Assembly: GCA_017405765.1 (NCBI GenBank)
Contig: JAFQZS010000033.1
Coordinates: 1 to 64,000, forward strand
DNA: 64,000 bases
Reading direction: 5' to 3'
DNA from: Clostridia bacterium
GTDB taxonomy: Bacteria > Bacillota > Clostridia > Oscillospirales > RGIG577
In this document: piece after piece, positions 9,416 through 26,857 of the stretch
Position numbering within the stretch: position 1 is the stretch's first letter
Layout: each line of letters starts with the position of its first letter
Notes under the pieces: model-generated
What the model was told of the DNA's origin: nothing
The model's input: only the letters and a program-made list of their open reading frames with translations
Databases searched by the model: none
Translations under genes and position numbers: made by a program

Positions 9416-9925
9416 TTATTTAGCCGTCAAAAACATGACCATACTGCGACCTTCCAGCTTGGGCTTTTTATCGACCGAAGCGACTTCGCTCATAGCCTCT
9501 GCAAAACGGTCTAAAAGCTCGACGCCCTGGCTCTGATGCTGCATCTCACGCCCGCGAAATCTCACGGACACCTTCACCTTGTCGCCGTTCTGAATAAATT
9601 TAAGCGCATGCTTTACCTTTGTATTAAAATCATGCACGTCTATCATGAGCGACAGGCGTATCTCCTTTACCTCCGTCACCTTCTGGTTTTTGCGCTGTTC
9701 CTTTTCCTTTTTGGAAAGCTCAAAACGATACTTGCCGTAATCCATGATACGACAAACAGGCGGATTGGCCTGCGGGGCGATTTTTACAAGGTCAAGATTT
9801 TTTTCTTCAGCGATGTCCATGGCCTTTTTTATGTCCATTATGCCAAGCTGACTTCCGTCAGCGTCGATAAGACGTATCTCCTTATCGGTTATCTCATCGT
9901 TGATCATCAAATCCTTGAAGCTAAT
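9416..9925 (-). CDS. infC: Translation initiation factor IF-3, inferred ATT start
   Basis: IF-3 prevents premature subunit joining and proofreads start codons. The body (INDEITDKEIRLIDADGSQLGI, APQANPPVCRIMDYGKY, RGREM) is unmistakable. The first TTG or ATG in frame lies inside the conserved N-terminus with no Shine-Dalgarno sequence near it. Five codons further upstream are ATT codons at 9925 and 9928, with GAGGTG seven or four bases before them. A start at ATT 9925 gives 169 residues beginning (M)SFKDLMINDEI, matching relatives. Initiation at ATT is the classic self-limiting device of infC, because IF-3 discriminates against such codons. The exact ATT is inferred. Confidence 0.93.
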   Translation of the reverse strand: MSFKDLMINDEITDKEIRLIDADGSQLGIMDIKKAMDIAEEKNLDLVKIAPQANPPVCRIMDYGKYRFELSKKEKEQRKNQKVTEVKEIRLSLMIDVHDFNTKVKHALKFIQNGDKVKVSVRFRGREMQHQSQGVELLDRFAEAMSEVASVDKKPKLEGRSMVMFLTAK

Positions 9926-10074
9926 AATTAAACACCTCTTCTAAAATATTAAACAAAAACGGGCGCACATAATGCACCCGTCAAAATACAAGAAAAAACA
10001 AAAGTTATTTTCCGATCGTATTGACCCGGCAACGAGATCGCCAAGGTGAGACGGGCGCACCGCCTTCTTTGTTC
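9926..10074 (-). ncRNA. infC operon leader with transcription attenuator (L20-leader-like)
   Basis: About 150 bases separate the predicted start site (near 10074) from infC. The leader ends in an intrinsic terminator at 9951-9982. Bases 10050-10059 repeat the terminator's 3' arm and can pair with its 5' arm over ten bases (one G-U), which would form an antiterminator. In Bacillus the same operon is controlled by L20 binding to its leader and favouring termination. Binding here is inferred from position and architecture. With the divergent pncB promoter this accounts for the whole gap of about 307 bases between infC and pncB. Confidence 0.72.
9951..9982 (-). terminator. Leader terminator upstream of infC
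   Basis: On the minus strand the hairpin GACGGGTGCA-TTATG-TGCGCCCGT is followed by TTTTTGTTT. It lies inside the leader, not at a gene end, as expected for an attenuator. Confidence 0.78.
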
Positions 10075-25169: not shown

Positions 25170-25643
25170 TTACTGCCCGTCCTCTTGTTCGCCGCTTTGG
25201 TCGATCCCCGGGATCGTTTCGAGCATCGTTATCTGTGATTTATACAGCGACAGCAGACGTCCTTTGAATATCTGCGTCTCTCTTTTTACCTCTTCAAGCT
25301 TTCGCTTCTCCGTAAGTATCTGAAGGTTTACGTTGTTCATGGCGCGCTCGGCTTTTTCTCTTGCATCTGCAATTATAGCCTCGCCCTGACGGCGGGCGTC
25401 CATGGTAACGGAATCTCCCATGCGCTGCGCCGATACAAGCGCCGCCTTAAGTGACTCTTCCGCTTCGCGGTATTCCTGTATCTTATCGGCAAGTATGGTC
25501 ATTTTATGCTTTAAGTCGCTGTTCTCCTGCAAGATCCGCTCATACTCTGACGCGACCTCAGAGACAAAAGCATCTACATCGTCTATCTTGTACCCGTGAA
25601 GAGCTTTATCAAATTTGCGGTCGGTTATATCCTGCAAAGTCAT
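25170..25643 (-). CDS. divIVA: Cell-division protein DivIVA
   Basis: DivIVA senses membrane curvature at poles and septa. The 157-residue protein has the N-terminal lipid-binding domain with DITDRKFDKALHGYKIDDVDAFVSEV, then a long heptad-type coiled coil through residue 140. The length is typical of clostridial DivIVA. It stands between yggT and ileS, the conserved order of the ylm cluster, although the S4-domain gene ylmH usually found between yggT and divIVA is absent. Confidence 0.95.
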   Translation of the reverse strand: MTLQDITDRKFDKALHGYKIDDVDAFVSEVASEYERILQENSDLKHKMTILADKIQEYREAEESLKAALVSAQRMGDSVTMDARRQGEAIIADAREKAERAMNNVNLQILTEKRKLEEVKRETQIFKGRLLSLYKSQITMLETIPGIDQSGEQEDGQ

Positions 25644-25682: not shown

Positions 25683-25961
25683 TTAAAAAAGGCTGTAATA
25701 ATACAAACGTCTGATCATTCTTGAAACCAACGCTAAAATAAAATATGCTGCCACCGGAGAAAAATCGACCGGAAACTGACGCAAAAAAGATGAGCGCATC
25801 ATCAGCTTTCTTATCGGCGCAAGTATCGGTTCCGTTATGCGTACTATCCAATATGTAACCTTATTTGGATTTATACGTATCCACGAAATGACCGCGCGTA
25901 TTATGATAAGCATCTGAAGGATCCATAATATGCCCGTTATAAGGCTTACAAACGCTCCTAT
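25683..25961 (-). CDS. yggT: YggT-family membrane protein, inferred ATA start
   Basis: The protein has two membrane segments and the family signature RQFPVDFSPVAAYFIL. The first ATG (25913) cuts the first membrane helix in half and has no ribosome-binding site. Sixteen codons upstream the frame continues to a stop at 25967-25965. A perfect AGGAGG (25975-25970) sits eight bases before an ATA codon at 25961. Starting there gives (M)GAFVSLITGILWILQMLIII, a full first helix and normal family N-terminus, 92 residues in all. No ATG, GTG or TTG lies in that interval in frame. Homologues in the ylm cluster affect septum placement. Confidence 0.75.
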   Translation of the reverse strand: MGAFVSLITGILWILQMLIIIRAVISWIRINPNKVTYWIVRITEPILAPIRKLMMRSSFLRQFPVDFSPVAAYFILALVSRMIRRLYYYSLF

Positions 25962-25985
25962 ACGTCACTCCTCCTTTTCGTCTCC

Positions 25986-26312
25986 TTAGAACGAAATGTT
26001 GTCGAAGGATGCGCCGCCCAACGAACCGCGCATCTCGTTAAGCGTCTCAACAAAATACGGCGTAACTACAAAGGTGCTGGCCGCGATCTTTGAAAGAGTA
26101 GCGCTGTTTGCATAAGCCACTCCCGAAAGAAAATCCACTACGCGTCTTTCTATATCCTGCGGCGCGTTCTCAAGATTCACTACCACGAGCTTCTTCTCGT
26201 TTATACTGTCCGCAACGTCTCTTGACTCGGCAAATTTGCTTACCTTTGAAAAAACAGCCTCCAGCTGCGCCCCTTCTATAGCCTGGCGGGTGTTATCTGC
26301 ATCTTCATACAT
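25986..26312 (-). CDS. SepF-like protein, short paralogue
   Basis: The 108-residue protein contains the SepF core: VFSKVSKFAESRDVADSINEKKLVVVNLENAP, RRVVDFLSGVAYANSATLSKIAASTFVVTP. It lacks the N-terminal amphipathic helix that anchors SepF to the membrane. It follows a complete sepF gene on the same strand after about 70 bases, which makes a tandem pair. SepF polymerises and tethers FtsZ; a protein without the anchor could co-polymerise or modulate, which is inference. Confidence 0.85.
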   Translation of the reverse strand: MYEDADNTRQAIEGAQLEAVFSKVSKFAESRDVADSINEKKLVVVNLENAPQDIERRVVDFLSGVAYANSATLSKIAASTFVVTPYFVETLNEMRGSLGGASFDNISF

Positions 26313-26383: not shown

Positions 26384-26857
26384 TCAAAAGAATATTCCGC
26401 TGTTTTCGATCTCGTCAAGTATCTCGCCCCTCATTTCCACGTTATAGGGGATTATTATAAAGGTGCTTGAGGCAACCTTCTGAAGTCTGCCGCTGTTTGC
26501 ATATGCAACTCCCGACAAAAAGTCGATAAGTCTTCTTGAAGTTTCGTTGTTGGCAGATTCAAGGTTTAAAACAACGGTTTTCTTCGTATTCAGATGATCG
26601 GCGATCTCCCGCGCATTCTCGAACTGCTCCGGCTTTACCAAAACGACCTGAAGGTTTGATGCATTAGGCACCGAGGAAGACACAGATGTGCTGAAAGAGG
26701 GTCTGCTCCTCTTAGGAGGCTCCGGCGTGGGGTCGGGAGTATAGACAGGCGCCTCATCCACCGCTTCATCGTCTTCGGGGTCGTATATGCCCTCGCCCTC
26801 GAGTTCATCGGGATCGTCCATACCTACCATATCCTTGAATTTCTTTAAGATACTCAT
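26384..26857 (-). CDS. sepF: Cell-division protein SepF
   Basis: SepF links FtsZ to the membrane. The 157-residue protein has an N-terminal amphipathic anchor (MSILKKFKDMVGM), an acidic proline-rich linker (residues 15-65), and the SepF core ending with RRLIDFLSGVAYANSGRLQKVASSTFIIIP. It starts 12 bases after the yggS stop and precedes the second sepF-like gene. The core shares clear blocks (RR.VDFLSGVAYANS) with its neighbour. Confidence 0.95.
   Translation of the reverse strand: MSILKKFKDMVGMDDPDELEGEGIYDPEDDEAVDEAPVYTPDPTPEPPKRSRPSFSTSVSSSVPNASNLQVVLVKPEQFENAREIADHLNTKKTVVLNLESANNETSRRLIDFLSGVAYANSGRLQKVASSTFIIIPYNVEMRGEILDEIENSGIFF

Follow-up and report, generated by a model that had tools for sequence, protein, structure and literature searches.

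The yggT (ylmG) gene of the Clostridia bacterium examined here raises the question of where its translation begins. The window (contig JAFQZS010000033.1, a stretch of 64,000 nucleotides) contains an intact yggT reading frame in which the first ATG, GTG or TTG is only met at codon 17, as counted from an ATA preceded by a strong Shine-Dalgarno (SD) sequence. AUA serves only very rarely as a natural start codon, and the gene callers in common use accept ATG, GTG and TTG as starts, AUA not being among them, so that annotations made with them probably omit or shorten yggT; similar AUA-started genes may be hidden elsewhere. Comparison with related genomes, homologous start positions and a structural model indicate that yggT is, with high probability, translated from the ATA at position 25961.

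The start region and its operon

The gene is located on the minus strand, as a single copy in its genome, within a sepF operon in which sepF, a second sepF, divIVA and ylmE lie next to it. The gene order on this strand is ylmE, sepF, a second short sepF (sepF2), yggT, divIVA, ileS and lspA, the names being assigned by homology to the known Bacillota cluster. Both sepF (26384–26857, minus strand) and the divIVA-like gene downstream of yggT (25170–25643, minus strand) appear in the list of open reading frames; SepF homologues occur at nearly all of the yggT loci checked, and homologues of the divIVA-like gene adjoin yggT in relatives. Directly upstream of yggT lies sepF2 (25986–26312, minus strand), a genus-specific tandem copy that encodes a protein of 108 amino acids with 50% identity to the core of SepF1 and without the roughly 65-residue N-terminal part of the latter. 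All three genus members have this short gene between sepF and yggT, while sepF is single at nearly all of the loci examined in the order, class and phylum and none was found at loci L010 and L154.

Read directly from the minus strand, the start region of yggT is TGA-CGT-ATA-GGA, and the whole sepF2-yggT intergenic sequence runs TAA GGAGACGAAAAGGAGGAGTGACGT ATA GGA GCG TTT. From the ATA (25959–25961, minus strand) the coding sequence extends over 25683–25961 to a TAA stop (25685-25683) and specifies 92 amino acids. An AGGAGG (25970–25975, minus strand) precedes this codon with an 8-nt spacer (25969-25962), and an in-frame TGA (25965–25967, minus strand), conserved in the three species and separated from the ATA by the single codon CGT, bars any in-frame start further upstream. 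The first in-frame ATG, codon 17, is found at 25911–25913 (minus strand); a GGAGG-like site was looked for upstream of it and none was found. The direct reading thus agrees with the preliminary description of this DNA, which had reported an AGGAGG eight bases before the ATA at 25961, a stop in frame just upstream, no ATG, GTG or TTG in frame between this ATA and the ATG at 25913, and no ribosome-binding site for the latter. The product expected from the ATA would begin with formyl-Met-Gly-Ala and yield the N-terminal tryptic peptide (f)MGAFVSLITGILWILQMLIIIR; it matches the YggT family (PF02325) at 56 bits, the curated cut-off being 27. Readthrough from sepF2 into yggT was considered and rejected, as two stops (TAA and TGA) intervene in this genome and the spacer is 1 nt shorter in one of the congeners (G002).

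The combination of an AGGAGG and an ATA at a distance of 5–9 nt is, taken alone, not beyond chance: the genome has 132 such sites, the reversed control 202. What raises the yggT codon above chance is its gene context together with the conservation of the ATA, of the SD spacing and of the lack of a conserved canonical start in three species.

Conservation within the genus

Three species, all of one genus and at least two represented by MAGs, were compared: the genome under study (G000) and two congeners, referred to as G001 and G002. The congener contigs are JAFOLN010000267.1 (dairy cattle duodenum) and JAFWDJ010000012.1 (sheep duodenum). A search for further congeners returned the same two among genome contigs and none among viral contigs. 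The YggT proteins of the congeners are 87 and 78% identical to that of G000, and their sepF2-yggT DNA shows no more than 86 and 80% identity, which excludes a shared assembly error. Alignment of the start codon in relatives, as the preliminary description had suggested, gives ATA in both congeners and hence in all three species, behind AGGAGG, AGGAGG and GGGAGG, each with an 8-nt spacer; GGAGG is kept throughout, and the remainder of the intergenic spacer mostly diverges. The identity of the codon is weak evidence by itself: of 11 conserved Ile columns, 8 keep one codon in the three species.

More telling is the distribution of canonical codons. The ATG at codon 17 is replaced by CTT in G002 and by ATA in G001, and in the latter the first canonical in-frame codon occurs at about codon 59 (59 or 60) of 92, so that this species requires a non-canonical start (or a frameshift) and no ordinary in-frame start could yield the conserved N-terminal half of YggT. 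A frameshift that joins the frame to another start, the finding in relatives that would have spoken against the ATA, is not seen in the two congeners. The loss of every canonical start might also signal that yggT is decaying or untranslated in the genus, but the frame is intact in the three species, GGAGG is retained, and dN/dS amounts to 0.14-0.20 over codons 2-92 (0.31-0.44 in the short stretch 2-17), the substitutions fitting the ATA frame in being mostly third-position changes. Judged from these ratios the ATA frame is under purifying constraint, and the probability of decay is practically negligible.

Several points count against the ATA reading: the sample is limited to three genomes, G002 has, as its only early canonical in-frame codon, a GTG at codon 5 that could serve as its start, and an out-of-frame ATG or GTG occurs 7 nt upstream of the ATA in all three species. 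The GTG of G002 could belong to a set of species-specific weak in-frame starts, with later ATA or ATC codons serving in G000 and G001 (ATA is also found at codons 8 and 11); only the first ATA, though, stands at optimal SD spacing in all three species, which leaves this arrangement a very slim chance. The out-of-frame codon (GTG at 25966–25968, minus strand; ATG in both congeners) would require an early one-base skip, a +1 shift, into the yggT frame. Such a route, for which the presence of RTG-ACG in the three species and a frame open for at least 35 codons could be cited, is nonetheless quite unlikely: the SD spacer would be just 1 nt, the junction offers no stop codon or re-pairing slip site, the encoded peptide is not protein-like, and the conservation of TGACG is equally explained by that of the in-frame TGA.

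Homologous start positions and predicted fold

Within a window of -14 to +8 codons relative to the ATA column, SD energy was used to call the starts of 87 outgroup yggT genes belonging to the order, class and phylum; where the SD is weak, the call is uncertain. In the alignment the ATA residue falls on the common Met column; all 87 genes have their best canonical start between -6 and +3 codons from that residue, and in 28 of them the two coincide exactly. A model of the 92-residue ATA-started protein, obtained with AlphaFold2 (AF2) from a 60-row alignment, has a mean pLDDT of 92.4 (94 for residues 1-10), and its first helix is predicted to span residues 2-27 with pLDDT above 90.

These results bear on the proposal that the true start is the ATG at 25913, the preceding 16 codons being untranslated. 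It is the first canonical codon in frame, and the Pfam domain still scores 52.6 bits when translation is taken from it. On the other hand, this codon is neither conserved nor preceded by a ribosome-binding site, a protein begun there would lack more than half of predicted helix 2-27, and where outgroup genes have a strong SD their starts gather around the ATA column, in a window that does not reach codon 17. The ATG is accordingly given hardly any weight. Initiation at the ATA is well supported against it by the congeners, by where the outgroup genes start, by the predicted fold and by the SD, all of which agree with the central claim of the preliminary description; its further statements, that the ATA provides a family-like N-terminus and a complete first membrane helix which the ATG would halve, are matched by the outgroup alignment and by the model, where the cut removes more than half.

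Weak starts of yggT in other lineages

Among 27 order-level outgroups, TTG accounts for 11 of the 20 yggT starts that have a good SD, versus 0/72 in the neighbouring sepF, divIVA, ylmE and ileS; Fisher's test gives p = 3e-9, without a correction for shared ancestry. An excess was also found in the phylum sample (14/30 for yggT, 5/61 for its neighbours, p = 5e-5), the two sets corresponding to loci L118-L177 and L004-L030; it is absent from the class sample (3/24 vs 8/77), and the weak-start habit is therefore not uniform. As yggT of the order favours TTG and its neighbours do not, the gene looks like one that in several lineages tends to pair a strong SD with a weak start, the ATA being the extreme case. 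This gives a hint that weak initiation may characterise yggT across several lineages of Bacillota.

Start codons elsewhere in the genome

In 28 syntenic gene pairs of the contig and G001, the canonical start is shared by 27, yggT being the sole exception. A scan for SD-preceded ATA, ATT, ATC and CTG starts in ~430 kb (stretches of two genomes) returned, besides yggT, only chance-like frames, and a liberal use of ATA starts across the genus was rejected since no other convincing case was found there. An altered initiator tRNA was likewise rejected: in the 30 of 40 tRNA loci examined the initiator is ordinary, with a CAU anticodon, the C1-A72 mismatch and three G-C pairs.

The gene for IF-3, infC (9416–9928, minus strand; IF3_C match), has an apparent start at ATT 9928 or ATT 9925, which reads ATT ATT AGC after AGAGGTG or GTGAGGTG in the three species, and in two outgroups an ATC is the apparent start at the matching place. 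A near-cognate start codon is frequent in infC, and its occurrence here suggests that start-codon discrimination by IF-3 is probably intact. It is also the one point, an indirect one, in favour of a possible tie between YggT and the IF-3 level, as raised in the preliminary description. The ribosome-binding site of yggT folds no better than shuffled sequences in any of the three species, so that no structural switch is proposed.

Possible mechanism and relation to known systems

Initiation at the AUA could proceed as follows. The strong AGGAGG would hold the 30S subunit before the codon, and the ordinary initiator tRNA (CAU) would pair with its A and U, the third base being mismatched. The SD, perhaps together with ribosomes that come in from sepF2, some 25 nt upstream, may partly offset rejection by IF-3. 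The outcome would be a full-length, three-helix YggT made at a low rate, a fraction of that of AUG. The ATA would already have been established when the three species of the genus diverged, in a gene for which the weak TTG is a frequent start in this order.

In Escherichia coli, infC and pcnB start at AUU; a near-cognate start lowers translation, and that of infC is the basis of IF-3 autoregulation, as cited in PMC13009471. The yggT start is near-cognate as in these genes but differs in being AUA. Closer examples are those of Staphylococcus aureus, where AUA starts have been reported for ccpN, infC and citZ and an AUU start for cvfC1, with extended SD sequences, and where reporters with non-canonical starts reached ~10% of the AUG level, up to 30% for the ccpN AUA in rich medium (PMC13009471). 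As in those genes, the AUA of yggT stands behind a strong SD and, as in ccpN, it is conserved among related species (PMC13009471); in contrast, yggT encodes a divisome-associated membrane protein and belongs to another bacterial class. The gene is thus a well-supported candidate for a genus-conserved natural AUA start, of the very rare kind already reported in S. aureus. Low YggT expression is likely, by analogy with the published AUA reporters and with the tendency of yggT towards weak starts.

When YlmG is overproduced in cyanobacteria and chloroplasts, FtsZ rings, division and nucleoids are disturbed (PMC2923531), and YlmG of Clostridioides difficile localises to midcell (PMC12548448), which makes a limitation of YggT dosage, and selection for a weak start, plausible. 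A broader proposal, which is rather doubtful, is that the dosage of YggT/YlmG in Bacillota may be held down by selected weak starts (TTG widely, AUA here) behind strong SDs, the amount following start-codon discrimination and hence IF-3 activity and growth state. The locus resembles those of the YggT/YlmG family in sepF operons in its domain, in its ylmE-sepF-yggT-divIVA-ileS neighbourhood and in the position of the start; it is unlike the others in its ATA and in the second short sepF between sepF and yggT. As a separate observation, in the class-level relative L141 a CTG preceded by TGGAGGG has a better position than the ATG that lies five codons before it, and may be another non-canonical yggT start.
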